Origin: a virus
Length of the DNA: 42,651 nt
Direction: 5' to 3' (one strand)
IMG/VR virus record: IMGVR_UViG_3300009537_000045
Coordinates: 1 to 42,651 of that record
Position 1 is the stretch's first letter. Each line of letters begins with the position of its first letter. A model generated the notes under the pieces. The model did not search any database, was not told where the DNA came from, and worked only from the letters and a program-made list of their open reading frames with translations. Position numbers and translations under genes: made by a program. Positions 8,605-37,834 of the stretch are shown piece after piece.

Positions 8605-9731
8605 CGCCCCCCCAAATACTTGCGTTTCAAACGATCATACTCGTCATCTTTTTTATTGTCTTTTGGTGCTTCTTTAGGTTTTGAATTCTTGAGTGTCGGC
8701 GCACGAAAATCCGTAATTACGTCTTTGGGATTAATTCCAGATCGTACGGCAATCTCGCCATACTGCGATCGAATTTGCTCATAGTTGCGATTCATTGCGC
8801 CGAATAGCATGTTTGATCGATCAACAAAATCTTGCCGTACTTCGGGTGCAAGTCGTTGGCCATTAGTCGCCCGTTCAACGAGACCCTGAATGCGCTCCCC
8901 AAAACTTCCAGTAGCAGCCGCCGTAGCAAATTCAGATTCACGTACCACAGAACCGGGATCAAGCATTTTCATATAATTAAATATCAAAGACAGATCGCCA
9001 GCCGCACTCGGCTCGCTAGCCGATGATTTAATTCGTTCGTAAGAGTCATTAACCGCGCGGAAGTCCTTAGTCAAGGAATTAAAGTTATCGCGCAACTTTT
9101 CCGCGTTTCCAAACAGCTTATCGGCTCTTGCTGGGTCTGGACCACCCTGAGCGACAGGCTTATTATCAGTTCCGAACCGAATATCCCCAGGCTTTAAGAT
9201 ATAAGGTTGTTCTTTCGATTCGCTGATTTTCTTGAGCTTATCGGCTAACTCGATATTGCCGACTTGAAGAGCGCGATTAATAGCATTCGCATAATCGGCT
9301 TTCGCGGCTTGCGGGGCGATATCGGGATTGATGTTTTTCCCTCCGGCCGTGAGGTTAAACGCGGGTAAACCTTCACCCGGCGACAAAGCGGGATTCCCCG
9401 GCATCTCTGGGGAAAAGTACTGACCGAGAATATTTTGCGTTTGTCTTTGCCGCGAAACTTCCGGATTCACTCCGACAGCGGAAAACAACGTCGCCGCGTT
9501 GGGGTTTCGCTGTATAAGCCTATTCCAAGCGCGGTCGGAAATGGCTCCTGATTGTCGAGCTTGGGCATAGAACTGAATCTGTGGAATGTCTTTTTGTCTC
9601 GATGGATTTAGTCCACCGTTTCGAGTTCTCGGGTCATCATCGGGTAACGGCTGGCCAGATTCGAGACGCGACAGCATGTCGGATTGCTCGACCGGCTTTC
9701 GCATTGACGTACCCATACCGAATCCGGCCAT
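8601..9731 (-). CDS. internal virion / ejection-type protein (376 aa)
   Basis: Charged and largely helical. It carries DLSLIFNYMKMLDPGSVVRESEFATAA at about residues 247-273, a segment I associate with phage internal or ejection proteins of podoviruses. The C-terminus is very basic (KEAPKDNKKDDEYDRLKRKYLGGR). It is translationally coupled to both neighbours (TAATG and ATGA). It occupies the P22 gp20 position. Confidence 0.65.
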   Translation of the reverse strand: MAGFGMGTSMRKPVEQSDMLSRLESGQPLPDDDPRTRNGGLNPSRQKDIPQIQFYAQARQSGAISDRAWNRLIQRNPNAATLFSAVGVNPEVSRQRQTQNILGQYFSPEMPGNPALSPGEGLPAFNLTAGGKNINPDIAPQAAKADYANAINRALQVGNIELADKLKKISESKEQPYILKPGDIRFGTDNKPVAQGGPDPARADKLFGNAEKLRDNFNSLTKDFRAVNDSYERIKSSASEPSAAGDLSLIFNYMKMLDPGSVVRESEFATAAATGSFGERIQGLVERATNGQRLAPEVRQDFVDRSNMLFGAMNRNYEQIRSQYGEIAVRSGINPKDVITDFRAPTLKNSKPKEAPKDNKKDDEYDRLKRKYLGGR

Positions 9732-13393: not shown

Positions 13394-14476
13394 TTACTGA
13401 ATTTCCTTCGCCAAGGTCTTTGCGATCACCAACCAATTGCCGTTCAGAATTTTGGTTGCGTGCCACGCTTTCCAGGCAATGGAACCGATTTCATCGAACA
13501 TATCACCAATGCCGGATGATCCAGGCTTTTTCTGGATCAGCATGATGGCCTGCTCTTTGCCTTCGTACATCTTCTTAACACCGGTGGAGTAACCTACCCC
13601 CAAACCAACGGTACCGACCGCTTCTTTACCGTAGATGTAAGAGGTATACACGTCGTTGGTATCGACCGAGGTTCCTCGGAACACATTCGAGGTCGAGGTC
13701 GTACCGGCACCGGTCTCGATCGGTGCTATTTCCGACATGCACCACCTCACACCCCCAATGGCACCGAACTCCCCGACGATCGTTTCGGTATAACCGCCGT
13801 ATTGCTCGACGCCGATAAACCCGGTGAGGTTTCGAATATCTCTCTCGACATCGGGATGACAAACCCCGAAGAAGCTGGACCGAACCGTTGACGTGTTTAT
13901 ATTCGTACTACCGGTTTGCATGGTGAACATCTTCATCGCGGAATTTCGCTGAAGCTTGTTCACCGCCCACTCAACGTCGACGACCTTTAATTCCGCGATC
14001 ACCGCCGATTTATTGGCGGCCCCGGAGGCGTAGCGAATCTGTGAAGCGTTGTCGAATTCCAGCCTTGCTACGGAGTTCAACGACTCGCCGGCATTCGCAC
14101 CCAATGTTTCCATCAGGTCCATCGTTCCCGAGTTGATGTTGAATAAATCGACTTCCTCGGTGGTGATGATCGCGTTACCGTATTTCGCAATCGCCTTGGT
14201 GACGTTAAAGATTGTCGGGCGAACCGCCGAACGGCCTACGCCAAACGTCGCGGTGGCGCCGGGTGAGAGTTCCGACAGCGCCGTGGTAACGGCGGCGAGG
14301 TTTTCGATACGCCGCCATTTTACCGTTGCCGACCCTCCTGTTTTTTCCAACACACCGGGCATAGTCCCATTAAAAAACGGCAACGTCTTACGCGCGGCGG
14401 ATAACAGACCACGCATGTAGACGTTGTTAATGGGTGCCGGTATGTCACTACCAAAGTTACTAGTGACTTGTGCCAT
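13394..14476 (-). CDS. major capsid protein, N4-gp56 family (360 aa)
   Basis: Family-like blocks include RKTLPFFNGTMPGVLEKTGGSATVKWRRIENLA near the N-terminus. Others are the central ITTEEVDLFNINSGTMDLMETLGANAGES and the C-terminal YIYGKEAVGTVGLGVG. The length fits this HK97-fold capsid family. I chose the ATG at 14476 (GAGG 10 bases upstream), while a TTG two codons earlier is possible. It follows the scaffold gene and ends at a strong terminator, as expected for the most abundant virion protein. Confidence 0.85.
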   Translation of the reverse strand: MAQVTSNFGSDIPAPINNVYMRGLLSAARKTLPFFNGTMPGVLEKTGGSATVKWRRIENLAAVTTALSELSPGATATFGVGRSAVRPTIFNVTKAIAKYGNAIITTEEVDLFNINSGTMDLMETLGANAGESLNSVARLEFDNASQIRYASGAANKSAVIAELKVVDVEWAVNKLQRNSAMKMFTMQTGSTNINTSTVRSSFFGVCHPDVERDIRNLTGFIGVEQYGGYTETIVGEFGAIGGVRWCMSEIAPIETGAGTTSTSNVFRGTSVDTNDVYTSYIYGKEAVGTVGLGVGYSTGVKKMYEGKEQAIMLIQKKPGSSGIGDMFDEIGSIAWKAWHATKILNGNWLVIAKTLAKEIQ

Positions 14477-14478
14477 AC

Positions 14479-15156
14479 TCAATATCCTCGTTTAATCCTA
14501 GTCCATTCCCGTTCGAATTCAGCATCGTTCATATTCATCATACGTTCATCGATGCTGTCTTTCGCCGAGGTGGACTGGCGTGTTTGGGTGGATGCTTTTG
14601 CCGCGCGGATATTTTCCTGTAACTGGGGGTCGGTCTTGATCTGAAAGATTCCCTTGGCTTCATGGGTGATGACTTCCAGAGCTTCATCCAATGCCTTCGG
14701 GTTCAGTTTCCGATTATCCCAGATACTTTTGAACACCTGATCGTCGCGATACCGTTTCTCCAAAAGAATCTCGGTATACGACTTGTCGATGTTCAATTTT
14801 GAATTTACCTTCGCGACCGCCTGATTGACTTCGGCATCAAGCTCCACTTGTTGCGCGCGCTTTGAAATCTGCTGAACCTGTTCCCCTAATTCCCGAAGCG
14901 TTCCAGTAACGTATTGCTGTTGCTGGAGGTTGTATTTAGAAAACTCCTCGGGTTGCGTAATAGGATCAGGCACCGGGGGGACGTACTGTACCGGTGGGGA
15001 TTGCGGCGTATTGGGCTTGGCGACAAACTCCGTGGACAGTTTGTCCACGTTGTACTTTTTGGCCACATCGGCCATTGAAACTTCCGCAGTCTCTTCTGCG
15101 ACGGGTACTTCGGTTTCAGTCGCTTTGTCAGTCGGCTGATCGTCTACGTTTTCCAT
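14479..15156 (-). CDS. putative scaffolding protein (225 aa)
   Basis: Acidic N-terminus (ENVDDQPTDKATETEVPVAEETAEV), Pro/Gln-rich middle (PNTPQSPPVQYVPPVPDP), long helical segment (LRELGEQVQQISKRAQQVELDAEVNQAVAKV) and a basic C-terminus (EFEREWTRIKRGY). This composition, and the place between portal and major capsid genes, are typical of tailed-phage scaffolds. It overlaps the preceding small gene by 13 bases and couples to the capsid start. Confidence 0.75.
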   Translation of the reverse strand: MENVDDQPTDKATETEVPVAEETAEVSMADVAKKYNVDKLSTEFVAKPNTPQSPPVQYVPPVPDPITQPEEFSKYNLQQQQYVTGTLRELGEQVQQISKRAQQVELDAEVNQAVAKVNSKLNIDKSYTEILLEKRYRDDQVFKSIWDNRKLNPKALDEALEVITHEAKGIFQIKTDPQLQENIRAAKASTQTRQSTSAKDSIDERMMNMNDAEFEREWTRIKRGY

Positions 15157-15353
15157 TGTTCATGCTCCAAATTGATATTTAAGTAACTCAACCAAATATC
15201 GAAACCACGCTGTTCGGCGGAGCGGCTTTTCCACTCCTCGGTGTTGTCTTTCTGAAAACTATGTACCGGGATCATCGGACGTTGTTTTAGAACGTCACGG
15301 ATCAACTTCACCACACGTTCATCCGAATAGAGTTCCAGTAGAATTTCTTTCAT
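15144..15353 (-). CDS. small protein between portal and scaffold (69 aa)
   Basis: It starts in an ATGA overlap with the portal stop and ends 13 bases inside the scaffold gene, so it is firmly part of the head operon. The sequence is helical and charged (LLELYSDERVVKLIRDVLKQRP ... GFDIWLSYLNINLEHEQWK). No family recognised. It could be a head-assembly accessory. Confidence 0.65.
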   Translation of the reverse strand: MKEILLELYSDERVVKLIRDVLKQRPMIPVHSFQKDNTEEWKSRSAEQRGFDIWLSYLNINLEHEQWKT

Positions 15354-17539
15354 TGGATAGTCGAGGTCGCCCCCGTTATCTGACCGTTACTGCGTTTCAA
15401 ATCAATAACGCGCGTTTTCCCGAGCTTGCTCACGGTCTGAGCAAGTAATTCGTTGTTGGAATTAAGTTTCTCCGCCATTTGGAGAATCGCTGTTCCAATT
15501 TGTTCCATCGGTCCTTTCATCGAAGAGTCCATGACGTTCACGGAAGCCGGTTCCTTGGACTCCCTCGATATACTCATAGCTTTCATTTCGTCCATGGAAC
15601 ACTTGTGAGCGGTTTTAATCTCATCCATGTCGTTCTTCAAACCGGCGGTTTGCTCGGCGATAGCAGCGGTGGTCATGGCTTTGAACTCAGCGAGTTCCGC
15701 CGCCTTCTGGGCTTTGAATTCCTCGACCTGCATTTTATGTTCGGCTTTAACGGTCTCCAATTCAAGTCGGCTTTCGGCCTTCCCCAGTTCTTCACGTAAT
15801 TTGGCGATTTCTTCCTCATGCGCCTGCATCTGTTCTTGGAACTGCGCCTTCAACTGCTCGGGGTCTTCCTCCTGACCGGTGATAATTAGATTCTCCGGCT
15901 GTTTCTCGCCGGCATCCTGGTAAGCGTCCTTCAATAGCTGTTCACGATTTAAAAGTTTACTAAACCCCGGCGACTGGTCCGCCCATATGGTCACGGCGGA
16001 TTTCTTCTCCATACGATTCTTTTCTCCCAAAACACCCCGGGAGCCCACGACTTCAAATTGACAAATAGCCGGTAATTGATCCCGTGTAACCCGCATAAAA
16101 TCCGGCGCGTCCATCTCCGGGTTGTAGAACTCGTAATTCTCCATATACAGCTTGTTCAACTCATGTTGACAATAGAGAAACGGTCTAAGTGCATGGCGTT
16201 CCTGTTTATCCACGAATTCCGCAGTTCGTATTTCGGCCTTGGCTTCGGTCGTCTGAATCTCGGTCGCGGTTTTATCGGATACATCTCCACCGGCTCCCGC
16301 GCGGATGGCGTTAATCCCCAGTCCTTGGTTCATTTGCGCGATGATTAATTCGAGTCCACGCAATGCCTCTTGGGGGTCTCCGATTTTAAGCTCCGACCAC
16401 GCCGCCGAGGACTTCGATCCAGTCTGTGCTCCGGGGGCTATTCTTGGGCCGCCGTTCAAAACAAACTGGGGATCGTTGGCGTCGTAAATACCCGGTGGTT
16501 CCACACGCAACCAAACCGCGTCGAGATACTTGTTCGCCAACTGCGAAGCCAGCTTTTGCATCGGCGATAGTTTTATCAACGGCGAGGTGTAGTACGGGTC
16601 TCGAACGTCCATACGTTCATACCCTGAAAAGACCACCGGCGGATACGGAAGATCGTTCGATTCGGCATAGACAATCACGCCGTTCGCCAGAATGCATTTA
16701 TAATTGGGAAGCGTGATATCACCGTCGCCGCGCTCCATCACCAAATCCCCGTAGCGTTTTATCAACTCGATATCTTGAGTATCGACATCCTTGTTCTGGT
16801 TCGTTCGCTTGGGTATTTTGTCTATGTTCTCGGGCATCCAGCCATCGCCACGCGCGATTTCCTTCAACTGATAAAGTGGAATGTAATCTCTAAGAATCAT
16901 GGACCCGGTATAGAACAAATCCGTTCCGATAACCGACGGACTGGGGTCTGGATAGGCGTTCCACATAGAATACGGCACCCACACCGGCGCGCCCATGACC
17001 GAGACTCCGCCTTGGGCGTTGTAGTATTTATTTCTATACTCGAAACGTATTTCCGACACGTAACTACCGTGGTGAAGTGCTTCTTTTACCGATAATTCAT
17101 AACGCGCTTTAACCCCGAAGTCTTCGTGTTGTTGGACTAACAACGCCCTCAAGGCTTTATCGGTGAATTCCTGACGTTTTTGATCGACCAGCTTTTGTCC
17201 TGAAACAGGATCAAGATCCCCCTGAACTTCAGAGTGGACTTCAAACCATGATCGGGTCGACGGGAAGGTCAAACGCATGACATCGGCGGTGATGATTTCC
17301 GACGCCTTTGCTAATTCCCCCATCTCAAGTACCGAACGCCATTCCTCGTCGACCACGGAGCCGTCCTTATTTTTCCTACGTAAGGGCTCCATAACAATTT
17401 GACGATCGACTTCCTTCCAGATCGTCTCGTGGAGTTTGCGAAAAGAATCACGTTTGCGCTCATCGTATTCCTTGTTGACAAGCTCCTGGACCTTGGCCCA
17501 ATCTTTTTTCGTGATCTTTCTCTTCTTAACGTCTACCAA
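15350..17539 (-). CDS. portal protein (729 aa)
   Basis: Large helical protein with portal-type blocks: MWNAYPDPSPSVIGTDLFYTG, YPPVVFSGYERMDVRDPYY, KLSPMQKLASQLANKYLDAV and a long C-terminal coiled coil (EEIAKLREELGKAESRLELETVKAEHKMQ). I set the start at a TTG at 17539, overlapping the terminase stop and 8 bases after GGAG. The frame is open further upstream but that part lies inside the terminase gene. It sits directly after large terminase, as usual. It forms the dodecameric DNA entry channel. Confidence 0.85.
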   Translation of the reverse strand: MVDVKKRKITKKDWAKVQELVNKEYDERKRDSFRKLHETIWKEVDRQIVMEPLRRKNKDGSVVDEEWRSVLEMGELAKASEIITADVMRLTFPSTRSWFEVHSEVQGDLDPVSGQKLVDQKRQEFTDKALRALLVQQHEDFGVKARYELSVKEALHHGSYVSEIRFEYRNKYYNAQGGVSVMGAPVWVPYSMWNAYPDPSPSVIGTDLFYTGSMILRDYIPLYQLKEIARGDGWMPENIDKIPKRTNQNKDVDTQDIELIKRYGDLVMERGDGDITLPNYKCILANGVIVYAESNDLPYPPVVFSGYERMDVRDPYYTSPLIKLSPMQKLASQLANKYLDAVWLRVEPPGIYDANDPQFVLNGGPRIAPGAQTGSKSSAAWSELKIGDPQEALRGLELIIAQMNQGLGINAIRAGAGGDVSDKTATEIQTTEAKAEIRTAEFVDKQERHALRPFLYCQHELNKLYMENYEFYNPEMDAPDFMRVTRDQLPAICQFEVVGSRGVLGEKNRMEKKSAVTIWADQSPGFSKLLNREQLLKDAYQDAGEKQPENLIITGQEEDPEQLKAQFQEQMQAHEEEIAKLREELGKAESRLELETVKAEHKMQVEEFKAQKAAELAEFKAMTTAAIAEQTAGLKNDMDEIKTAHKCSMDEMKAMSISRESKEPASVNVMDSSMKGPMEQIGTAILQMAEKLNSNNELLAQTVSKLGKTRVIDLKRSNGQITGATSTIQ

Positions 17540-19014
17540 TTTCCCACTCCTACAACCGAAAGGCGCGGCTTCATTTTCACGGGCTTGGTCGTGGCAAACC
17601 TTCGCATCATCACGGCATAACGAGTAGCGGAGCACAAGTCATCGTTGACTTTAACGACTTGTCCGCCTTTTCGATGGTACATCCGCCATTCGTCGAACCA
17701 ATCTTTGAGATGCGAAAATACTTTAAACCTTCCGGTTTCCATCAGTGTCAGGATTTCAACAAGACCGACCTCCACCCCATTCCCACCTTGGCCTTCTTTC
17801 TGACCGGGACTCGGCGGGTTTGAAAAGCATTCGCGATGCATATTGACTCCGTCATTACGGTACCAGTCGGCAAACGGCTTTCCGGATTTGGGATCGTTTT
17901 TCATGCCGTCGTGCGGCCACATAACGGGAATCCAGTCTCCATGCGCCTTTAAAGTCGTCGATAGAACCGGCATCAGCGTCTTTGACTGCTTAAAAGCGTC
18001 GTATATATAAATCGCATCTTTATCCCTATCGACCGCGCACCACACAATAGCAGCAGGATGGTCATAACCGATATCGAAGCCGCAAATCCTGGCCCAATGG
18101 GAGGGTAAATCGAAGGGCGCGATGGATATTTGATCCTCGTGGACAGGCCAAACTAGACCTGTCCCCACCATGGGAATGCCTTTCTCACGCATTTCCCGTT
18201 CATGGACGGGGTATTGCATGAGCTTTTGACGTCTTTTATCCGGCGTCATGTGCGGTGCGTCATCCCATGAGGCTGTGATTAACGCCCACCCCGGTTTAGG
18301 GTCGTGCATAACTTCGTGAACGACTTCGGTCATGCCTTCTTCTGGGGTATAGGTTAGATATCCTATTCCATCAGTAGCAATACAAGAACGCAACTGCTGG
18401 GATAAAATCTCCCTGGGGGGTTCTTCGTCGTTCCAAAACCCGTGTAATCGATAACCCATGAACTTCTTGGCCCCCTGGTCATACGATTTAAAATAACACT
18501 TTGACCATCCGTCAAATAGACCTTTGGTGAAGTGTTTCACCATTAAGGACTCACAGGCATTGGGAACACCGGGCTTTCGGGTCTGTTGCCCCAGGCAGTA
18601 TTTAGGGACGGAGCCGGTGCCTATGGCGGAGTCATCCGCCGGGTCACCCATCAATTCCGTCTGGCAGCGGTCTTTTGTAGTCTCGTTGGTCGTCGAGGAG
18701 CATAACCACTCCACGGGATGATCGAAATAATGGCCTTGCCAATTTTCAGGATAAAGCCCGGTAAGGTGGTAAGCCGTTTCCATTCCCCCGCAAGTGCTTT
18801 TCCCAATTTGATTACCGCATTGAAGCGCGCGAAGAATCGCCAGCCCCAATTTTTTAGGGTCGGACCTTACCGGGACGAACTCGCCGGTGCCTAACGCCGT
18901 GTGAAATTTAATCTGGAATTCATAGGGCTTGTAGAACTCGATTTTATGCGTATTTTTATATGCATCGATATCAGCCAAAAGTTTAACGACTTCAGGAAGT
19001 TTCTTTTGGTCCAT
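17533..19014 (-). CDS. terL: terminase large subunit (493 aa)
   Basis: ATPase domain: Walker A CGNQIGKST at residues 66-74 and Walker B LHGFWNDEE with acidic residues D196-E198. The nuclease domain begins near residue 305, with D314 in ICGFDIGYDHPAAIVW, then WPHDGMKND, and the acidic DDLCSATRYAVMM near the C-terminus. GNQ-type Walker A is common among large terminases of short-tailed phages. It is separated from its presumed small subunit by the sugar cassette, which is unusual. It packages DNA into the prohead. Confidence 0.92.
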   Translation of the reverse strand: MDQKKLPEVVKLLADIDAYKNTHKIEFYKPYEFQIKFHTALGTGEFVPVRSDPKKLGLAILRALQCGNQIGKSTCGGMETAYHLTGLYPENWQGHYFDHPVEWLCSSTTNETTKDRCQTELMGDPADDSAIGTGSVPKYCLGQQTRKPGVPNACESLMVKHFTKGLFDGWSKCYFKSYDQGAKKFMGYRLHGFWNDEEPPREILSQQLRSCIATDGIGYLTYTPEEGMTEVVHEVMHDPKPGWALITASWDDAPHMTPDKRRQKLMQYPVHEREMREKGIPMVGTGLVWPVHEDQISIAPFDLPSHWARICGFDIGYDHPAAIVWCAVDRDKDAIYIYDAFKQSKTLMPVLSTTLKAHGDWIPVMWPHDGMKNDPKSGKPFADWYRNDGVNMHRECFSNPPSPGQKEGQGGNGVEVGLVEILTLMETGRFKVFSHLKDWFDEWRMYHRKGGQVVKVNDDLCSATRYAVMMRRFATTKPVKMKPRLSVVGVGNW

Positions 19015-19068
19015 ACATATTTCTTGCTGTATCTTCAGTTTCTTCTTCGAGTTTCTTTTGGCCTAAAT

Positions 19069-20010
19069 TCACGTCACGCACGCTTCACATATAGTTCCTT
19101 GAATTTTCTTAGATAAATGTGCCGATCGAAGACTTTGAAATGTATCTGAATTCCATGCTTCCATAAAAGATTGCTTACTCAAATCTCCTACATCTACTTC
19201 ACAGGTTGTGTCTACGCAACAGATAGACATTTTCCCATTAGAAGTAATATGACCTTCGGTAAAAAGCGACCAACACGGTACTGGTTCTCGTAAAGACCCT
19301 AAACGTCCTTGATTCCCCGCACTAGACTTGAAACCTAAACGTTCTTCGCGCTCAGACGAAGAAGTGCTCAACGAATAAAGTGGAAGCCAGTAATGTTCAT
19401 CGACATACGGTAGAACATGATCCGCCAATAGGCGTTCCATTTTTACTTGTTGTTCACCGTCGTAACTAATGGAGGAAGCATAGAGTTTAGTTTTGTAGTT
19501 TTTTGCCGTTCTAATGGCCCAGGCAGATTTTACGTTATTGATTGATTTGTAAAATAACTTATCCGAGACTCCCATCACCTTTTTAAACTGTTCTTCGTTC
19601 TCGGCATTAATCGACCATTTGAGAGAATCTAAACCAGCTTTCATGCAATCTTCAACTTCGTTTGGAAAGGCTAACGAAGCGTTAGAGGTAAGAAAAATAT
19701 AAGGGATTTTTATCTTTTTCAAATAAGAAATACAATCTACTAATAGGGTCGGGTTCATAAAAGACTCGCCAATGTAGAAGACGCCAACCTCTTCAACATC
19801 GAGAGACTTTAAATCATCGGCTATTTTCTTGAACAGACTAAAATCCATATCTTCCGTATGTAACGGTCTTTCTGTAAACGTACAAAACGAACATCGAAAG
19901 TTACATCTTGGAGAGATTTCTATTTTCACCGATTTGGGTGCCGGCGGGTCGGTACGTAAATACTTTTGCGAAATACCGGTAATCTCATCGATACGCTTAG
20001 TAATGCTCAT
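19069..20010 (-). CDS. radical SAM protein with SPASM-like C-terminal domain (313 aa)
   Basis: The CxxxCxxC cluster motif is C36, C40, C43 in ISPRCNFRCSFC. GVFYIGESFMNPTL and FLTSNASLAFP follow the radical SAM barrel pattern. A cysteine-rich C-terminus (PVPCW...MSICCVDTTCEVDVGDL...ICEACVT) resembles a SPASM auxiliary cluster domain. GGAG precedes the ATG, which abuts the preceding glycosyltransferase stop. The substrate is unknown; in this cassette it may alter a sugar or a glycosylated peptide. It is the last cassette gene before large terminase. Confidence 0.85.
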   Translation of the reverse strand: MSITKRIDEITGISQKYLRTDPPAPKSVKIEISPRCNFRCSFCTFTERPLHTEDMDFSLFKKIADDLKSLDVEEVGVFYIGESFMNPTLLVDCISYLKKIKIPYIFLTSNASLAFPNEVEDCMKAGLDSLKWSINAENEEQFKKVMGVSDKLFYKSINNVKSAWAIRTAKNYKTKLYASSISYDGEQQVKMERLLADHVLPYVDEHYWLPLYSLSTSSSEREERLGFKSSAGNQGRLGSLREPVPCWSLFTEGHITSNGKMSICCVDTTCEVDVGDLSKQSFMEAWNSDTFQSLRSAHLSKKIQGTICEACVT

Positions 20011-20670
20011 TTACTCTCCTTCGAGTTCCAACGCTTCGTCTTTCCAGTTGCCATTAAACGTGCACTTCGAATAGGTTTCGATCCACGGTCCGCCAATCGT
20101 ATAGTGAAACAAGGAGCTATTCGGATCGGGGATATCGTAGTCTACGAGATGATTCCAATAATTCGGCAGTTCGCCTACCTCATGTTCTTCAAGCCATTTG
20201 AATTGATGAAGATCGAGACCGGGTGCGGTGTTTACATAATCCAGCGTCAACGTTTTGCATTTTTCATTGTTGAACAACATTAGACTCGACCAATTTTTCT
20301 TGCCGTAGTTGATTTGTGCCTTACCTGTCGATTTTACCGTTTCCGACGCGACGTGGTTATGTTTAACCACGCGTAATGACTTATCATCACGCCACGCCCA
20401 AAGTCTGGCAATATCATCGACGCATAACATATCCTGGTCCATGAAAATTGCATGACCCCGGTAATTGCACAAGTAGGGTACCAGAAACCGGGAAATCGAG
20501 AAGTCGCTTGAATCGAGTTCCGATCGATGACGGGTAAAAATCCCCCTTAAGGATTTGCGGTTGATAAACGAAATCGACGGCGTGATCGAGGCACGGTTCT
20601 GAATCGAGTGCGCCAACACATAAGCCGCCTTGGCTTCGGTTTTATCAAATCCGATAAAGACGTTAATCAA
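20011..20670 (-). CDS. glycosyltransferase, GT8-like (219 aa)
   Basis: GT-A type fold signs: N-terminal INVFIGFDKTEAKAAYVLAHSI, DXD motif D78-Q-D80 in HAIFMDQDML, and a late GGPWIETY loop. The TTG start has GGAG upstream and overlaps the ColD-like stop by 8 bases. It should transfer a nucleotide-activated sugar. It is the fourth glycosyltransferase-like protein of the cassette. Confidence 0.78.
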   Translation of the reverse strand: MINVFIGFDKTEAKAAYVLAHSIQNRASITPSISFINRKSLRGIFTRHRSELDSSDFSISRFLVPYLCNYRGHAIFMDQDMLCVDDIARLWAWRDDKSLRVVKHNHVASETVKSTGKAQINYGKKNWSSLMLFNNEKCKTLTLDYVNTAPGLDLHQFKWLEEHEVGELPNYWNHLVDYDIPDPNSSLFHYTIGGPWIETYSKCTFNGNWKDEALELEGE

Positions 20671-21748
20671 GCCAACTCCAATCGATCGGGTAATGATGAT
20701 TACCGATAAAAATGGCGTGCTGATCGATCCAATCGGCGTTTTTTAGCTCTCCATGAATCGAGTAATCGTAATGAACGATTGATTTCGATTTGGTGAAGTT
20801 TCCCGACATGATGGGTCGGTAATCAACCTTACCGTCGAACTTTTTCTTAACCGATTCAAAGTGCGAGATATCGTCCACTATTAGCGCAAAACCAAACCAA
20901 GAGGATTTACCGTGAGTCGGTTCTTTTTGCGTTTTCCATCCGTGAATCTTGCTGACCTCTTTCCATAGATCAGCGTTCTTACGACGCTCATCGATGAATC
21001 TAGGGAGCTTTTCAAGTTGTTTAAGACCGATGGCACACTGAATTTCGGTCGGTCTTACGTTGTAGCCTGGATAGATAAATTCAAAGCTGGACGGTTTGAT
21101 ACCATGTTTATTGCCTTTCGGTAAATGCCGGGTCCAGCCGTGCGAACGTAAACATAATAACATTTCGTAATAAAATTCATCATCGGTCGTTATTAGACCA
21201 CCTTCCATGGTGGAGATGTGGTGGCTGAAAAATGTCGAATGGCTGGACAGTCGTCCGAAATTCCCGGTCTTCATACCGGCGTACTCGGCGCCCATGGCTT
21301 CGCAGTTGTCTTCCAATAATTCCATGGAGGGGAACTCGGTAAAGTCATTGGGATTACCGAGAAGGTTGACAGCTAAAATCAATTCATGACCTTGATAGGC
21401 TTGTTTTAACGCCTGAAGATCGTAGTTCAACGTTTCCCGGTCGATGTCGACAAACTTCAACTTCCAGCCGCATTGAACGAACGGGCTGTAGGAAGTAGAC
21501 CAAGCGACCGCCGGGACGATAACCTCTCCGACCCCTTGGCGAAGTGAAAGAGCGGCGGTCATCAACAGATTGGCCGATGAACCGGAATTCACCGCCACGC
21601 AGTATTTAGAATTTACATAACTAGCGTACTGCTGCTCGAAACTCGATGCTTTCTCGCCCATCGTGAAGTTTCCGGACTTCACCACTTCTTGAATCGCTTC
21701 TATTTCCTCTTGCCCCCAACTCGGGGAGGCCAACGGATGTAAGCTCAT
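20663..21748 (-). CDS. colD: ColD-like PLP-dependent GDP-4-keto-6-deoxymannose 3-dehydratase (361 aa)
   Basis: DegT/DnrJ/EryC1 fold throughout: PLASPSWGQEEIEAI at the N-terminus, VNSGSSANLLM, VPAVAWSTSYSP, LLEDNCEAMGAEY, HGWTRHLPK, PGYNVRPTEIQCAIGLKQLEKLPRF. The usual PLP lysine is replaced by histidine: FFSHHISTMEGG, with H176 aligned to lysine by spacing to EGG. This His substitution defines ColD, which removes the 3-OH of GDP-4-keto-6-deoxymannose instead of transaminating it; perosamine synthase keeps lysine. The GDP-mannose 4,6-dehydratase encoded immediately upstream would supply the substrate. No ColC-type reductase/epimerase is seen. It overlaps that gene by 128 bases. Confidence 0.88.
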   Translation of the reverse strand: MSLHPLASPSWGQEEIEAIQEVVKSGNFTMGEKASSFEQQYASYVNSKYCVAVNSGSSANLLMTAALSLRQGVGEVIVPAVAWSTSYSPFVQCGWKLKFVDIDRETLNYDLQALKQAYQGHELILAVNLLGNPNDFTEFPSMELLEDNCEAMGAEYAGMKTGNFGRLSSHSTFFSHHISTMEGGLITTDDEFYYEMLLCLRSHGWTRHLPKGNKHGIKPSSFEFIYPGYNVRPTEIQCAIGLKQLEKLPRFIDERRKNADLWKEVSKIHGWKTQKEPTHGKSSWFGFALIVDDISHFESVKKKFDGKVDYRPIMSGNFTKSKSIVHYDYSIHGELKNADWIDQHAIFIGNHHYPIDWSWLD

Positions 21749-22646
21749 TATTTAACATTTCCTCTATCAAGGATTCGAAATCATACATAGGTTTCCAGCC
21801 AATCGATTTTATTTTGGATGAATCGCCGACGAGATCGCCTACTTCGGTCGGCCTGAAGTTGTCTCGGGTAACGTCTATGTATTCACGCCAACGGAGGCCA
21901 AGGCGTTCGAAAACGTACCCACAAAGGTCTTGAACCGAATGTTGTTTACCGGTGGCAACCACATAGTCTTGCGGGTTTTTTTGTTGAAGCATCAGCCACA
22001 TTGCCTGAACGAAATCTTCCGCATGACCCCAATCGCGTTTCGCTTCGAGATTGCCAAGCGTGAGTCTTTCCTGAAGACCTGCTTTTATTCTTGCGGCAGC
22101 TTTGCAGACTTTTCGCGTAACGAAATCTTCTCCACGCCTGGGGCTTTCGTGGTTAAAGAGAATTCCGTTACAGGCAAACAGCCCACGCTCTCTATAATTC
22201 ACCGTCGCCCAGAAAGCCGCGAGCTTGGAAATACCATAGGGGCTGCACGGGCGAAACGGCGTTCGTTCGTTTTGCGGTCCCGGCTGATCGCCGAATAACT
22301 CGCTCGTGGATGCTTGATAGAATTTGGAATCAACGTTTTTCGCCGCCTGTAACACGTTCAACGTGCCCATCGCGTTTATCGAAAAGGTTTGTATTGGTAT
22401 TTCGAAGGAATGCCCAACGTGGCTCATTGCCGCAAGGTTGTATACCTCGTCCGGTTTTATCGCTTCGACAACCTTAATGAGCGATGGATCGCAAACATCA
22501 CCATGGACAATCGTAACGTCCTTCGGGAATTGATGGGCCTGAGAAGTCCGCCTAATTAACCCGAAAACCTCGTAGTTCTTCTCCAATAAAAGCCGGCTAA
22601 GGTAATAACCGTCTTGTCCGGTTACTCCGGTAATGAATGCTTTCAT
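21621..22646 (-). CDS. gmd: GDP-mannose 4,6-dehydratase with overprinted C-terminal tail (341 aa)
   Basis: Extended SDR: TGVTGQDGYYL nucleotide-binding motif at residues 7-14, NLAAMSHVG, catalytic triad T114/E116 in QASTSELFG plus Y137 and K141 in SPYGISK. NHESPRRGEDFVTRKV is diagnostic of this enzyme. It converts GDP-mannose to GDP-4-keto-6-deoxymannose. The family normally ends near FESLIEEML. Here residues from about 300 to 341 are extra and are read in another frame of the ColD-like gene, so they are probably not functionally needed. Confidence 0.93.
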   Translation of the reverse strand: MKAFITGVTGQDGYYLSRLLLEKNYEVFGLIRRTSQAHQFPKDVTIVHGDVCDPSLIKVVEAIKPDEVYNLAAMSHVGHSFEIPIQTFSINAMGTLNVLQAAKNVDSKFYQASTSELFGDQPGPQNERTPFRPCSPYGISKLAAFWATVNYRERGLFACNGILFNHESPRRGEDFVTRKVCKAAARIKAGLQERLTLGNLEAKRDWGHAEDFVQAMWLMLQQKNPQDYVVATGKQHSVQDLCGYVFERLGLRWREYIDVTRDNFRPTEVGDLVGDSSKIKSIGWKPMYDFESLIEEMLNNELTSVGLPELGARGNRSDSRSGEVRKLHDGRESIEFRAAVR

Positions 22647-22649
22647 TTT

Positions 22650-23393
22650 TTAAGCCACATGGAGCATTTTTCTAGGACCCTTTTTGTGAACCAGATACTG
22701 TCCCAATTCCGATGTTCCGATAACATCCAGAAAATCGGAAGGTACCTCGAACTGCCCGAGGTCGTTGCGCGTTACGGTTGCGAGATCGAACCAAGGACTC
22801 AGGTTTTTCTGTGAGGTCAAGTTAAAAGACCTTGCCCAATCGAAGGCTTCGCAGTCGTGCCAACGTCTTAAGGTGAAGAGAACCCCCCGTTGCAGACACT
22901 CGATGTACTTCGCTAGGAATTCCTTGAATCCATCTGCTTCGGTATCGAAACCTATAAAACCGGTCTCGGTATAGAACCCCAGCCTACCGAAAAAAACCAA
23001 ACCAACCGTACCCATTAAATTTTCCAGGAACGGCTGTGAGATATTTTTTTCGATCAAGCAGTCGGCATCGACCCAGAAAACTTTACCCTGGTAGTCTTTC
23101 AATACGTCGTGTTGAGCAAAGACCTTGCGGGTGAACTTCCAGGCGTCGTAGTTGTAGTTGTAGCCTTTCGGCGTCTTTCCCATCGCGAGCGGAACATTCT
23201 TCAGGTATTGGTAGAACGTCGGTACGGCTTCGATACCAAAGAAGTCGCGCTCTTCGATCTTCTCGTGTTTTAGATCGATCGGACTTTCCGAATACACGAT
23301 GATTTTTGTCGGCCAGTGTTCGACCATCGACTTCAGCATGGCTTTGGCATAGTGAGTATAGCCGGTGGCTGAAAACGTCGTTACAGCTATCAT
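22650..23393 (-). CDS. glycosyltransferase-like protein, GT-A type (247 aa)
   Basis: I chose the ATG at 23393 because it overlaps the previous stop (ATGA) and begins a typical strand, MIAVTTFSATGYTHYAKAML; an upstream in-frame start lies inside that gene. A DXD-type motif D109-A-D111 is in KVFWVDADCLI. The later FTLRRWHDCEAFDWAR region is plausible for acceptor binding. Cassette position supports a role in glycan assembly. Family not assigned. Confidence 0.7.
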   Translation of the reverse strand: MIAVTTFSATGYTHYAKAMLKSMVEHWPTKIIVYSESPIDLKHEKIEERDFFGIEAVPTFYQYLKNVPLAMGKTPKGYNYNYDAWKFTRKVFAQHDVLKDYQGKVFWVDADCLIEKNISQPFLENLMGTVGLVFFGRLGFYTETGFIGFDTEADGFKEFLAKYIECLQRGVLFTLRRWHDCEAFDWARSFNLTSQKNLSPWFDLATVTRNDLGQFEVPSDFLDVIGTSELGQYLVHKKGPRKMLHVA

Positions 23394-23959
23394 AATTTCT
23401 CGATACAGGTTTTTAACTGAAGTTGTTTCAACAAGACATTTTCCGCCTTCCAATCGTGATTAGGGTAGTCTCCAACTCCGGTTCGCGGAATATCCGGGTT
23501 CCGCGAGAATTCCAGTTCCGGGTCCAGGAGAGTGTCGAATCCGGCAAGCGCGATCTTTTCAGGTTTTAAAGCGACGGCATAGAGAATCGCCGCCATACCC
23601 AATGATACATTCGGGTGGCTGGCGGTCTTCTTGAACTCCCAGTTGGCCCTGTTTATATAGTTCAGGGGGATCCATAGAACCCCTAGTAATTTTTCGATCT
23701 TGCAGATGATTTCTTCATCGAACCATCCATATTTCGGGTATGCCCAATAATCTCCCTTAAAATCATGGAGCCCGCCGTTTACGAAACATCCCAGCGTTTC
23801 GGTCGAGGTCATCAGGTAATCCGACCGGGTTCCATAGTCTTGCGGGTTTTCAACACACTGCTTCCACCCCTGCTTGAGTCTGACGACTTTATGCGAATCG
23901 ATCTGTGCGCCTTTTCTTGCCCCCAATAGACTCGGGCCATGACCGACAATACAAATCAT
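23390..23959 (-). CDS. sialyltransferase-like protein (GT29-type motifs, 189 aa)
   Basis: It starts MICIVGHGPSLLGARKGAQIDSHKVVRL, resembling the L-sialylmotif (V-G-x-G/S ... ID-x-H/D-x-V-x-R). HPNVSLGMAAILYAVALKPEKIALAGFD at about residues 115-142 resembles the S motif. HDWKAE (H168-E173) fits the H-x4-E VS motif. The sugar donor need not be sialic acid. Shorter than typical family members. The activity is inferred from motif spacing only. Confidence 0.6.
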   Translation of the reverse strand: MICIVGHGPSLLGARKGAQIDSHKVVRLKQGWKQCVENPQDYGTRSDYLMTSTETLGCFVNGGLHDFKGDYWAYPKYGWFDEEIICKIEKLLGVLWIPLNYINRANWEFKKTASHPNVSLGMAAILYAVALKPEKIALAGFDTLLDPELEFSRNPDIPRTGVGDYPNHDWKAENVLLKQLQLKTCIEKL

Positions 23960-23960
23960 G

Positions 23961-24956
23961 CTAGTGGCACGATTGCCAATCGGAAATCGAGTTGAAAACT
24001 TTCTGGTTCCCGTAAATTAGATGGTCTCCACCCGTTCCGTAGTACCACAGGATAGAGTCTGTCTCTCCCGTGCCTTTGGGGGGTTTAATGGCATCACACG
24101 CGACGCCTAAGGAACCGGCTTCATGGCAAAGCGTCTGGGTAACGCTAACAACTTTGTCCATACATGACACCAGCGCCATGTGGTCGTCCATATTCGTGAG
24201 CGCGTCACATTCAAGCTCAACGGCCCCTGGTGTTGTTTCACCGTACTGCAAGTTTATGTACGTCCCCTTTTCTTTCATCAAGTCTTTTGGGTCAAGTGAT
24301 CCATGACGTGATTTCCAGCCAATGCCTATCAAAGGGCGTTCAAAGTGAGCGAGTTTCGATTCCCAGTAATCCTGGAGTTCTGGATTCACCTTAATGAAAG
24401 GTTTTTTCGGGAAGTGATATTTATCCCGTCGATAGAACATGAAAAGATCGGCCAGCGCCACCACCGCATCGGCATCCGTTATGTCGGATAGAACTTTTCG
24501 TGGTGTGCAAGTTATCCTGAAAGAACGCTCGAACAACGGGATGAGACGTGGATGACATTGAAGCTCTAACGGTTCATGGCCAAGCCTGACAATTAGTTCA
24601 GGAATAGCCGAGGCATAACAGATTTCATCTCCTATCCCTTGTTCAGAAGCTATAACCAGCTTATTAACGGGTTTCCCGTTCCACTTCGGAACTTTCAACC
24701 TGAAACCATTCCACCCCTGAAATGTTATCGACCAGTTGGAGCGGTATTCCCACCCATCCCAGTTATCGAACTTCCCCTGAGATAACCTGGAAGAGCACAA
24801 ATGCCATCGGAAGGTAGGTGGGAATAGCTGATAATCGATGTCACCTTTTTCCTCAAATAGCTTATAGGCATCATCGCGTATTTCTCTAAACTTATCCTCT
24901 GTGTAGTCCTGCCAGTGACAGTGCTTCAGGTCTTCGCAGAATGCTTCGAAGTTCAT
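23961..24956 (-). CDS. glycosyltransferase-like protein, GT9/GT-B heptosyltransferase-like (331 aa)
   Basis: The central PVNKLVIASEQGIGDEICYASAIPELIVRLG is the G-x-G-D block of GT9-type and TPR-linked GT-B transferases. IGIGWKSRHGS and VSVTQTLCHEAGSLGVACDAI match the C-terminal donor-binding half. The N-terminal 90 residues are aromatic-rich (WEYRSNWSITFQGWNG). The ATG at 24956 overlaps the previous stop (TGATG). Probably adds a sugar in the glycan made by the cassette. Confidence 0.7.
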   Translation of the reverse strand: MNFEAFCEDLKHCHWQDYTEDKFREIRDDAYKLFEEKGDIDYQLFPPTFRWHLCSSRLSQGKFDNWDGWEYRSNWSITFQGWNGFRLKVPKWNGKPVNKLVIASEQGIGDEICYASAIPELIVRLGHEPLELQCHPRLIPLFERSFRITCTPRKVLSDITDADAVVALADLFMFYRRDKYHFPKKPFIKVNPELQDYWESKLAHFERPLIGIGWKSRHGSLDPKDLMKEKGTYINLQYGETTPGAVELECDALTNMDDHMALVSCMDKVVSVTQTLCHEAGSLGVACDAIKPPKGTGETDSILWYYGTGGDHLIYGNQKVFNSISDWQSCH

Positions 24957-25249
24957 CAATGTTGTGTCTGTGTAGGCCCTAGAAGTAAATCAATCACTTC
25001 TACACATGGCACGAAGTGGCTTCTCAGGTACTCTGGGTCCATTTTTAGTATGTCTACCAGGTAAGCTCTCAAATCCTGTAGGTCATCGATCATTACAGCA
25101 ACTTGTTGCGCTGTTGGGGGTTTTTCCAAAACCTTTTTCAGGTTAAATATCGTGTGTTTTACCCTGACTTCTGTGTCTGGGAAGTTCACTCTGATAGCTG
25201 AAAGTCTTCCGATTAGCTCTTCACATTCTGAGACTATTTGGCTTAGCAT
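24956..25249 (-). CDS. hypothetical helical protein opening the cassette (97 aa)
   Basis: Helical, Leu-rich sequence (LSQIVSECEELIGRLSAIRV ... QVAVMIDDLQDLRAYLVDILK) with no recognised domain. No Shine-Dalgarno is visible before the ATG at 25249. It overlaps the next gene's start. It may mark the upstream edge of the sugar cassette. Confidence 0.55.
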   Translation of the reverse strand: MLSQIVSECEELIGRLSAIRVNFPDTEVRVKHTIFNLKKVLEKPPTAQQVAVMIDDLQDLRAYLVDILKMDPEYLRSHFVPCVEVIDLLLGPTQTQH

Positions 25250-25496
25250 TTGTGTGGGTTAAGGATTAGTCTCGTAAAATTGTGGGTGGTGAATAGCCAT
25301 ATCCTCTGTACCTTAAAGGGGGGTGTACCCCTATAAACCTAGCCTATAGATCAATTCTGCTATACTACGCATGCCTAGATAATGCCTTATGTATCAATGG
25401 CTTGTATATCTATTTAACATAATGGCTATTACGCGACACTTTAGCTTTTCTGCTGCATGGAAAGAGAGATTGACAGGTGCAACCTCTAATCGCCAT
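25250..25496. other. AT-rich intergenic segment at the cassette border
   Basis: 247 bases without a gene between the small membrane protein and the first cassette gene, more AT-rich than its surroundings. It holds a G-run/C-run inverted pair (GGGGGGTGTACCCC) and several TTGATA/TATAG-like strings leftward. No full promoter could be fixed. A leftward cassette promoter is plausible here. Confidence 0.4.
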
Positions 25497-25640
25497 CTAA
25501 TCCATCTCTAACGCTATCTCATACACCCAGCTAATCAAATAGCCAGCTGCGGTAGACGATACGATCATTGGATCGCTCTCAATCCCTAGTACTGAAGCTA
25601 CCCCCATTGCGATGAGTGCCAGCAATATAATCAGTCTCAT
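25497..25640 (-). CDS. small membrane protein (47 aa)
   Basis: AGGAGAGG lies 4 bases before the ATG at 25640. The N-terminus RLIILLALIAMGVASVLGI is strongly hydrophobic, and a second weaker segment (STAAGYLISWVYEIAL) follows. A longer in-frame version from 25775 exists but has no good ribosome site. Its location after the small terminase recalls small holin-like or accessory membrane proteins. Function unknown. Confidence 0.6.
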   Translation of the reverse strand: MRLIILLALIAMGVASVLGIESDPMIVSSTAAGYLISWVYEIALEMD

Positions 25641-25795
25641 TAGCCTCTCCTTTGCTGTTGTGGTTTTTAGGTGTCCAGCGTCGCTCTTTGTCCAGCGTAT
25701 CACATGCTGCAAGCACTTATCTAGGTGGGACTGCTGGTGTTTTGGCGTCACCGGCGCGATCCGTTCCAGTGCCATCGCTTTTAGTCCCTTACTCT

Positions 25796-26143
25796 TTACT
25801 GTGTCTGTTCTGGGGCTTCGTGGGTTTGGTCAGACTTACCAAGCAACCGGTAGGCTAATTCCTCGCCCACTAATGATATAAGCTTAGCCTCTACGTCCTG
25901 CAATCCTTCCTCTTTGTGTTGTTCGATAATCTCACTACTCGACAGTAACGGTAGTGTTCTGCCTAGCAAGACCTCACCGGCTTTAATTTGCGTGGTCGTC
26001 AGCTTTACATATTCTTCGCTGTCCTCGTTGTTAAGTACATGTTTTTCAAACCTTTTTACGATGAGACCGGTCTGGATACTATCTCTTATCTTTTCTCTGG
26101 TCTTGTTGGTTTGCCAGTTACGTTTTCGTGTGGTGTCTCGCAT
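25796..26143 (-). CDS. terS: putative terminase small subunit (115 aa)
   Basis: RDSIQTGLIVKRFEKHVLNNEDSEEYVKLTTTQIKAGEVLLGRTLPLLSSSEI matches a pattern common in phage small-terminase-like proteins (helix, then S/T-x-x-Q-x-x-A-x-x-x-L-x-R/K-x-L-P-x-L). The N-terminus is basic. GAGGG precedes the ATG. It is the first leftward gene of the late block, 6.8 kb from the large subunit because of the intervening cassette. Confidence 0.7.
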   Translation of the reverse strand: MRDTTRKRNWQTNKTREKIRDSIQTGLIVKRFEKHVLNNEDSEEYVKLTTTQIKAGEVLLGRTLPLLSSSEIIEQHKEEGLQDVEAKLISLVGEELAYRLLGKSDQTHEAPEQTQ

Positions 26144-26186
26144 ATCAAACCCTCATTGTTAGAACAACACGGTATAAAACTAGTGC

Positions 26187-26215
26187 TTGACACTATATGT
26201 CTATGCACATATATA
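26187..26215 (+). promoter_or_regulatory. sigma70-type promoter for the rightward small-gene cluster
   Basis: -35 TTGACA (26187-26192) is a perfect consensus. The spacer is 17 bases and the -10 is TATATA (26210-26215). It lies in the divergent region between the small terminase and the first rightward gene, about 68 bases before that gene's start. Confidence 0.65.
26195..26212. promoter_or_regulatory. operator-like palindrome inside the promoter spacer
   Basis: ATATGT and ACATAT form 6-base inverted arms around CTATGC, exactly between the -35 and -10 of the rightward promoter. A dimeric repressor bound here would block polymerase. The regulator is not identified. Confidence 0.4.
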
Positions 26216-32400: not shown

Positions 32401-32545
32401 TGTTGCTCCTGTTGTCTGGATTATTCTCTACCCTTCTCTGTTCTCGTCTCTCGATACGCTCTTTGATTCTCACTATACGCTGCGGGTCTACACCGTGCTT
32501 GATGGCTATAGATTCCAGCAGTTCTTGCAGATGATCGGGTCTCAA
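32387..32545 (-). CDS. small charged helical protein (52 aa)
   Basis: A TTG start overlaps the NinG stop, and the TGA overlaps the next gene's start, so the gap is filled in perfect nin-region style. Sequence MRPDHLQELLESIAIKHGVD, then RIVRIKERIERREQRRVE, predicts a coiled coil. No family recognised. Confidence 0.55.
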   Translation of the reverse strand: MRPDHLQELLESIAIKHGVDPQRIVRIKERIERREQRRVENNPDNRSNNELD

Positions 32546-32931
32546 AACTTAGAAATCCTTTCCTTGTAGCTTTCGATCTTCTCAAGTAGTTCGGATCGGG
32601 TCCATTTCTTTCCTACCCGCTTCATAGACAGAAGTATTTCAAGAGTTTCGGCCCCATACTTTCCGGCGATGTAAGCAGCGTGCTCGTGGACTGCTCCGCG
32701 TCTCGCTCCGTTACAAATACCGCACTGACTATTGCAGTTACGTTCGTCCCAACGAGTGCCGTTGTATTGCCTTTTAATGTAATGACCGCATTGAAAGTCT
32801 TTCCAGTTTCCTCTCGCTCCACAGGTGACACATTGACCTCCATCTCGTTGGCGGATGAATATAGAAAATACTCTATCTAATTCATCGCGTAGCTTCAGTC
32901 GAATTGATTTCGGTTTGCGTTTCTTTCTCAT
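32542..32931 (-). CDS. ninG: NinG-family recombination protein (129 aa)
   Basis: CVTCGARGNWKDFQCGHYIKRQYNGTRWDERNCNSQCGICN is the NinG/Rap zinc-binding, HNH-like core. The N-terminus is basic (MRKKRKPKSIRLKLRDELDRVFS). I chose the ATG at 32931; the longer open frame runs through a terminator. Rap/NinG is a structure-specific endonuclease of phage recombination. It belongs with NinB upstream as a lambda nin-like cluster. Confidence 0.88.
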   Translation of the reverse strand: MRKKRKPKSIRLKLRDELDRVFSIFIRQRDGGQCVTCGARGNWKDFQCGHYIKRQYNGTRWDERNCNSQCGICNGARRGAVHEHAAYIAGKYGAETLEILLSMKRVGKKWTRSELLEKIESYKERISKF

Positions 32932-32935
32932 CTTC

Positions 32936-33034
32936 TTAAAAAATAGGCCGGCCCTTCGACCGGCCCCAAGCCACCACAAGCGTCGACGGGTAGTTTCGAC
33001 TGACGACACGGAGGGAGAGGCCGCGCGTTTTCAT
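32936..33034 (-). other. ninG leader with possible 32-codon peptide and inverted repeat
   Basis: Between ninB and ninG, an ATG at 33034 opens a 32-codon frame whose stop lies 5 bases before ninG and which runs through the terminator hairpin. CCACCACA and TGTGGTGG arms (around 33034-33042 and 32970-32978) can form a long stem. No Shine-Dalgarno precedes the peptide, so its translation is doubtful; an attenuator is one reading. Confidence 0.3.
32938..32965 (-). terminator. rho-independent terminator just upstream of ninG
   Basis: Leftward: GGCCGG, loop TCGAAGGG, CCGGCC, then TATTTTTT. The U-tract ends 7 bases before the ninG start, so ninG and the Q-position gene depend on read-through, antitermination or another promoter. 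Confidence 0.75.
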
Positions 33035-33044
33035 GTGGTGGAAA

Positions 33045-33443
33045 TTATTTGTGCTCATGCGGGTCTTTGAATTTTACTCCATGATCGACGCCCCAAGCAT
33101 AGATGTATTGAATTAATTCTCTGCACTCAGCCTCGGTCAATTTACTGGTTCGTTGGTACAAAACGTCTATACCGTTTCCATCGATAGCCGGAATAAGTTT
33201 GATCTTCCTATCCGTGGCTCTCATCCATCCAGCGGTTAAAAGTCTTTTCCAATCTTCAATGTCATAGTATTCACCGTGCCACTTAACTTGTTTGGTAATG
33301 TCCGTGAGAACGGCATGTAGTTGATCATTACGAACGAGTGTGCGCGTTGATTCCCTAACCTCGACAATGACTTTGTTATCGCCGTATTCCTCCAGGTGTT
33401 GAAAGAGGGATTGCATACCGACGGGTAAAACGAAAGAGCGCAT
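33045..33443 (-). CDS. ninB: NinB-family recombination protein (132 aa)
   Basis: RNDQLHAVLTDITKQVKWHGEYYDIEDWKRLLTAGWMRA is a close match to the NinB/Orf family, as is TSKLTEAECRELIQYIYAWGVDHGVKF. Length is near that of lambda NinB. Lambda NinB binds ssDNA/SSB and aids recombination. The start codon lies in the middle of a 16-base perfect palindrome. NinG follows downstream after a terminator. Confidence 0.92.
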   Translation of the reverse strand: MRSFVLPVGMQSLFQHLEEYGDNKVIVEVRESTRTLVRNDQLHAVLTDITKQVKWHGEYYDIEDWKRLLTAGWMRATDRKIKLIPAIDGNGIDVLYQRTSKLTEAECRELIQYIYAWGVDHGVKFKDPHEHK

Positions 33444-37483: not shown

Positions 37484-37834
37484 ATGACATTCACAGACAA
37501 AGCCTATTGGAACCAAGCGCAACGCGAATACGAGGCCGACGATATGCGAGAAGAAGCAATCAACAAGCGCGCCGCAAAGCTCTACGACTCCACGATGTCA
37601 CGGCTTCTCGAAAACAAGGCCGATGTCGGCGAAATCCTCTATCAACTCGTCGAGTCCGATTGTCTATCCGTGGACGTGGCTTGCGTGTGCCAGCTGATTT
37701 TCGAATCTAAGCGACGTCGCGACCCACTGCCGAGAGAAGCATGCACCGCCTTCGCGGATTCTGTTTACGAATTGGTGGCGCAGCGAATCTACAGACAATG
37801 CAAAGACCAAGCAGAGAAGGAGATAGAGCAATGA
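37484..37834 (+). CDS. hypothetical helical protein (116 aa)
   Basis: ATG at 37484, five bases after the previous stop. Charged helices ([40 protein letters not shown]), then [19 protein letters not shown]. Stop overlaps the pentapeptide gene start. No family recognised. Confidence 0.6.

Follow-up and report, generated by a model that had tools for sequence, protein, structure and literature searches.

A predicted ColD-type sugar 3-dehydratase in a phage glycosyltransferase block beside the large terminase gene

In bacteria, the product of the 3-dehydratase ColD is converted by ColC into GDP-L-colitose. Together with E1 and SpnQ, ColD is one of the well characterised sugar 3-dehydratases, in which a histidine replaces the lysine of aminotransferases; a [2Fe-2S] centre bound by four cysteines is present in E1 and SpnQ and absent from ColD (PMC8987622, accessible part of the text). 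Here, we describe a ColD-like protein encoded by a viral contig of 42,651 nt, the whole of which is referred to as the window. The window protein shares with E. coli ColD (PDB 2gms, 3gr9 and others) the catalytic histidine, the active-site letters and the absence of the E1 cysteine motif, but is phage-borne, has 361 residues as opposed to 390 in the PDB chain, and is encoded beside the large terminase gene (terL) without ColC. RfbH/E1 (CDP-4-keto-6-deoxyglucose 3-dehydrase) has the same fold and the same substitution of histidine for lysine but differs in possessing the E1 cysteine motif and in falling into a separate clade.

Phage-borne relatives occur in named genomes. The Synechococcus phages ACG-2014f (L027:7944-9137) and S-CAM7 (L028:7980-9113) carry genes in the order gmd, fcl and His-type DegT, so that, as in the window, a DegT protein with His at the key column is encoded with Gmd upstream; however, these proteins are 28-31% identical to the window ColD, form a separate clade and are accompanied by an fcl/ColC-like gene. 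The cyanophage DegT proteins are named in their records as hypothetical protein, aminotransferase or putative CDP-4-keto-6-deoxyglucose 3-dehydrase, and the E1 cysteine pattern was not found in those of ACG-2014f and S-CAM7. Because the S-CAM7 protein is without this pattern, its name, CDP-4-keto-6-deoxyglucose 3-dehydrase, appears doubtful, and a GDP-colitose route would fit better. The nearest named genome by terL (47% identical) is that of Podoviridae sp. ct7QV12 (MW202713; 42.7 kb), in which genes for a GT-A fold glycosyltransferase (hereafter GTx), a GT9-like protein and a DegT protein likewise lie beside terL. Its DegT (MW202713 36117-37106, equivalent to L278:8118-9107), next to terL at the place of colD, has Lys at the key column, though, and no gmd or GT8-like match was found in the 14.7 kb examined. 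Since the same slot holds a Lys-type DegT in ct7QV12, the enzyme encoded at this site can be of the lysine or of the histidine type among relatives. Phage-coded glycosyltransferases of the mycobacteriophages Che8 and Rita are linked to glycans on the capsid protein (PMC11256854, accessible part, citing Freeman 2023).

The window colD lies in a minus-strand block that runs into the packaging and head genes in the following order, the major head protein lying further on:

24956-25249, minus strand: 97-aa ORF, function unassigned, with relatives in several blocks (blastp)
23961-24959, minus strand: GT9-like (heptosyltransferase-like) protein (profile match to a MW202713 gene, 150 bits)
23390-23959, minus strand: GT29 (sialyltransferase)-like protein (PF00777: 7.3e-11 for the L009 relative, 0.0016, below cut-off, for the window copy)
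22650-23453, minus strand: GTx, GT-A fold glycosyltransferase (AlphaFold2 pLDDT 78.6 and Foldseek; no Pfam match)
21621-22646, minus strand: gmd, GDP-mannose 4,6-dehydratase (PF16363, 1.5e-110; solved Gmds, 7.7e-102 to 7.5e-84)
20663-21748, minus strand: colD, predicted PLP/PMP-dependent GDP-4-keto-6-deoxy-D-mannose 3-dehydratase, an ORF with exactly these coordinates and an ATG start (phmmer, His column, active-site letters and tree)
20011-20670, minus strand: GT8-like glycosyltransferase, 219 aa, adjoining colD (PF01501, E 4.6e-4, 20.3 bits, cut-off 24.3)
19069-20010, minus strand: radical SAM/SPASM protein, present in some of the related blocks (PF04055, 5.8e-13; PF13186, 1.2e-11)
17533-19014, minus strand: large terminase, terL, directly downstream of the block (PF03237, 1.5e-18; PF17289, 9.9e-14)
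15350-17635, minus strand: portal protein (phrog_1216, 2.7e-8)
13394-14482, minus strand: major head protein (phrog_1357, 1.1e-41)

Elsewhere in the window, a 115-aa ORF (25796-26143), with relatives located either ahead of the block or within it, has no PHROGs match and resembles by eye, at the level of a guess, a small terminase; were it one, the sugar block would be inserted between the two terminase genes. A pentapeptide-repeat protein of 237 aa is encoded at 37741-38454 (PF00805, 8.6e-34), and NinG- and NinB-like genes adjoin at 32542-33443.

The window ColD matches the Pfam family DegT_DnrJ_EryC1 (2.2e-59), and a phmmer search against PDB returns four ColD sequences first, the best being E. 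coli ColD (4.9e-103; 50.3% identity over 348 aligned columns), followed by an E1 dehydrase (5.5e-36) and then by entries named aminotransferase (6.3e-32 or worse). The segment FFSHHISTMEGG begins at residue 173, and the first His of its pair is residue 176; in the alignment, the His176 column holds K in PseC and in the E. coli K-12 proteins ArnB and WecE, and H in ColD and RfbH. Histidine occupies this lysine column in 21/21 phage-clade rows and 17/17 bacterial ColD rows, some of the rows being near-copies. Given the E-values and this conservation across rows, the ColD assignment is not a matter of chance. Nine residues, S57, W88, D159, E162, S183, H188, R219, N248 and R331, belong to the PMP and substrate sites of ColD; their numbers run two below the PDB chain, the letters of which fit at a shift of two. 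All nine are identical in the window protein, in 21/21 phage-clade rows and in 17/17 bacterial rows, and five further columns (V78, E150, W205, F224 and N350) never vary among the ColD rows, their residues occurring in none of six RfbH, PseC, ArnB and WecE rows. The four-cysteine motif of E1-type [2Fe-2S] enzymes was not found in the window ColD by a simple pattern that matches 3/3 RfbH rows, nor did the alignment reveal a catalytic lysine at the active-site column. These results bear out the sequence-only reading, which had proposed a ColD with the DegT fold and a histidine in place of the PLP lysine; a functional lysine, which would have spoken against it, is lacking at the active-site column, and the other ColD active-site letters tested are kept.

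A quick tree of 75 rows chosen out of all loci, with SH-aLRT support only and no bootstrap, tells the same story. The window ColD sits in a phage clade of 20 rows (SH-aLRT 100), which is nested in a set of 36 rows (SH-aLRT 97) to which E. coli ColD and numerous ColDs of bacteria also belong. Outside this set fall nine lysine-type rows (PseC, ArnB, WecE and others, with no perosamine synthase among the rows of the tree or the alignment) and three RfbH/E1 rows (28-29% identity to the window ColD). A position among aminotransferases would have contradicted the earlier reading, and the protein is instead found inside the ColD set; the His column and the tree, with these lysine rows for comparison, likewise agree with its dismissal of a perosamine synthase. 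By every sequence test made, the window enzyme is an ordinary ColD, even though its PHROGs match, phrog_3139, is to a family named aminotransferase.

As that reading also had it, gmd is located directly upstream of colD. The two genes share 128 nt (about 42 codons; 21621-21748) at the 3′ end of gmd. The window Gmd scores 373 bits with the NCBIfam gmd model, below the 415-bit cut-off. It has 341 aa, compared with 308 aa for the Gmd of the related contig L002, the extra tail of about 33 residues lying over the start of colD. Gmd is the one match of the contig to the Epimerase family. ColC was not found in the contig, as noted previously: the ColC/Fcl profile gives only a 29-bit match, inside Gmd. 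The window contig is linear and may lack some sequence; the nearest named genome is circular, 42,697 bases long, and called complete. When 40 whole records were searched with the ColC profile, strong matches (3.1e-105 or better) were obtained in five, namely L146 and four records of another type (L007, L045, L060, L072), and the other 35, including the window, gave either no match (25 records) or at most 34 bits (10 records). The profile found no match in three related contigs of 41 to 43 kb in which ColD is present (L139, L141, L147). Near bacterial ColD, a ColC/Fcl-like gene is found at 13/17 loci in the stretch examined, three of these being among the profile's own rows. Gmd, too, is sometimes missing: no Epimerase-family protein, and so no gmd, was found in three ColD-bearing phage-clade fragments of 5 to 24 kb (L004, L005, L006), and none was found in the stretch examined of L044, where ColD is present.

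The remaining genes of the block resemble glycosyltransferases to varying degrees. GTx, for which profile comparison with PDB gave no match, was modelled from the start at 23396, and its model retrieves solved glycosyltransferases in Foldseek with a best E of 3e-7 and modest TM-scores of about 0.4-0.57. The GT8-like protein, of which seven copies were aligned, also matches phrog_28018 (unknown function); its profile reaches a best E of 0.088 against PDB, and its AlphaFold2 model was unsuccessful (pLDDT 43.6). The GT29-like profile matches a solved sialyltransferase at 0.0013 over about 55 residues. The MW202713 gene matched by the GT9-like profile is annotated as glycosyltransferase tibC, and the GT9-like gene is conserved in the block; its window copy matches no Pfam family and its profile has no match in PDB. 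From the radical SAM to the GT9-like protein, Kyte-Doolittle hydropathy stays at or below 1.34 in every 19-residue stretch. The block therefore contains no evident flippase, polymerase or membrane anchor, and its transferase-like proteins look soluble.

To define the distribution of the block, we used 100 loci with a ColD match of at least 200 bits, of which 99 are viral contigs and one, L009, belongs to a metagenome-assembled genome. Seven further loci were excluded: six duplicated a contig already included, and L001 is the window itself, so that the window stands outside the 100. ColD fragments below 200 bits, for example in L121 and L132, were left out as well. ColD is encoded within 7 kb of terL at 21 loci besides the window (20 viral contigs and L009), with near-copies, judged by similar profile scores, among them (L124/L125/L128; L040/L123/L136; L130/L131). 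These loci carry gmd in 20 cases, GTx or GT8-like genes in all 21, and a ColC/Fcl-like gene in one (L146). Gene order in the block is much alike across viral contigs, and also in a single contig that was binned with the genome of a gammaproteobacterium. Some related blocks have the GT8-like and radical SAM genes swapped, and in others one or the other was not found. Portal and head genes accompany the related blocks wherever the contig extends that far.

What occupies the colD place is variable. At 4392-5554 of L149, judged by eye, methyltransferase-like and cytidylyltransferase-like ORFs are found there, and L150, examined at the level of its gene map, gives the same map; in L230, a long methyltransferase-like ORF (8045-9001, by eye) stands at the colD place and separates gmd from the GT8-like gene. 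Some blocks contain extra genes between GTx and gmd, such as oxygenase-like, hydrolase-like and FkbM-like methyltransferase ORFs in L002:2429-4208 (by eye). The gmd of L009 (4729-6663) is interrupted in frame, between FNHE and SPMRG, by about 330 residues that start with Cys and end with His-Asn before Ser, and that match a LAGLIDADG-like family below its cut-off (PF14528, 4.6e-4); the insert has the appearance of an intein, here within an enzyme of sugar metabolism. Just upstream, ORF 4331-4732 is HNH-like by eye.

We considered whether the GT8-like protein is a dedicated dideoxy-sugar transferase. This idea is weakened by the best 80 GT8-like loci, 76 of which are without ColD; since only 4 have ColD in their available flanks, three of them on contigs already found, the family is a phage glycosyltransferase of general occurrence, not tied to this sugar. 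Mutual exclusion between ColC and the transferases was also considered and set aside. The GTx/GT8-like pair occurs at 1/30 ColD loci with ColC and at 43/70 without it (Fisher 1.2e-8), but the association is not significant on the tree with independent pairs: among 10 pairs on starred branches, the second trait differs in 1.3 on average (median p 1), and among 7 pairs from 86 better-flanked rows, in 2.6 (median p 0.25). Many of the available flanks are also short.

Beyond these blocks, 72 of 50,697 named-phage records match the window ColD, none at 60% identity or more, and megablast of window positions 17000-26200 against named phages gave no match. The key column, seen in 8 of the 72, is His in five (L027, L028, L029, L031, L032) and Lys in three (L030, L034, L278). 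Viral metagenomes contain many relatives of the His type. A pattern scan of IMG/VR yielded at least 594 relatives, and the best 80 loci, and thus a set selected for likeness, each have a His copy; they contain 82 DegT segments, of which 80 have His and 2, second genes in L096 and L111, have Lys. Over all loci, controls and duplicates included, the count is 146 segments (133 His, 11 Lys and 2 gaps).

In the ColD cycle, pyridoxamine phosphate (PMP) is renewed from glutamate. By the proposed pathway, Gmd would convert GDP-D-mannose into GDP-4-keto-6-deoxy-D-mannose, from which ColD, with PMP and with His176 as acid/base, would expel the C3 hydroxyl; hydrolysis of the imine would then give GDP-4-keto-3,6-dideoxy-D-mannose. 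The ColD reaction is established for the family, and we infer it for the window protein, which is very probably a ColD-type 3-dehydratase making this product together with Gmd. The families of the two enzymes thus support the route that the sequence-only reading had drawn up to this keto sugar. Colitose itself is not predicted from the phage genes alone, because the contig is without ColC. The soluble glycosyltransferases of the block may place the sugar, either keto or reduced, on a cytoplasmic acceptor, the reduced form being one that a host ColC/Fcl-like enzyme would make. Such a host reductase probably performs the last reduction; a different phage enzyme acting at this step is rather unlikely, and direct use of the keto sugar less likely still. 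Improbable, too, is a bolder version in which a podovirus lineage has a shortened pathway deliberately ending at the 4-keto stage, its own transferases putting the reactive keto sugar on the virion; ColC would not be needed there, since the keto sugar itself would be what goes on the virion.

The identity of the enzyme could be read in other ways. A GDP-perosamine synthase or other sugar aminotransferase, or an E1/RfbH enzyme with a CDP-sugar as its substrate, would have the same fold, and RfbH provides the top NCBIfam score of the window protein, but this score, 187.7 bits, is far below the 423-bit cut-off. The ColD-only columns argue against these readings, and the Lys-type DegT in the ct7QV12 slot makes the His and Lys states distinguishable at a single site; in view of the His column, the missing E1 cysteine motif, the tree and the neighbouring GDP-mannose dehydratase gene, we rejected the perosamine synthase and E1/RfbH assignments, which would be highly unlikely. 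We give equally little credence to the view that ColD is a relict derived from a host, either inactive or moonlighting. The enzyme that normally completes the pathway is indeed missing from the stretch examined in 20/21 related blocks, and gmd from some phage-clade records, but the active-site letters are kept in 21/21 phage-clade rows, all of them stop-free segments above 400 bits.

As to the acceptor, we favour a virion protein, with about an even chance of being right, because the transferases look soluble, GTx has a GT-A fold, the neighbours are packaging and head genes, and PF00303 is missing. This last family (thymidylate synthase/hydroxymethylase) bears on whether the sugars end up on DNA, a modification found in phages whose pyrimidines are hypermodified: DNA is a known target of phage glycosyltransferases (PMC12619734, accessible part), but PF00303 is found in 0/7 records (the window and six related records, some of them fragments), compared with 9/14 control genomes, and the block is located with packaging and head genes. 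On these grounds DNA glycosylation was rejected, and DNA would be a most improbable acceptor; an acceptor of yet another kind is unlikely. The second candidate, credible if less probable than a virion protein, is a host surface glycan: the same enzyme would serve another acceptor, the block remodelling the lipopolysaccharide or another surface glycan of the host, either in lysogens or at a late stage of infection, for example as a barrier to other phages, and the virion would never carry the sugar. GT8 enzymes work on lipopolysaccharide. GT9 enzymes act in its synthesis (PMC10980836), ColD and Gmd serve the O-antigen in bacteria (PMC8987622), and gmd and fcl are interpreted as genes for the cell wall in a study of cyanophages (PMC9602691), each according to the accessible part of the source; the frequent ColC/Fcl-like gene at bacterial ColD loci (13/17) fits as well. 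Against remodelling of the host stand the position of the block beside terL in 21 further loci, which makes late expression likely, the lack of an evident membrane protein in the block, and the absence of an integrase family among the profiled part of the window ORFs.

In the part of the open-licence literature listed, no title or opening of an abstract describes a phage ColD. Within that literature, and as far as the searches show, what is new is a ColD in phages and its recurring place beside terL, mostly without ColC. Phage sugar chemistry of this kind is easily misread, since phrog_3139 and named records say aminotransferase or hypothetical protein. With ColC missing, the identity of the transferred sugar and that of its acceptor become a concrete biochemical question, and the switch between His and Lys at one slot beside packaging genes should decide the product. 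Phages carry C3-deoxygenation genes for GDP-sugars, here in a block of sugar-transfer genes next to those for DNA packaging, an arrangement suggesting that such phages coat themselves with an unusual sugar.
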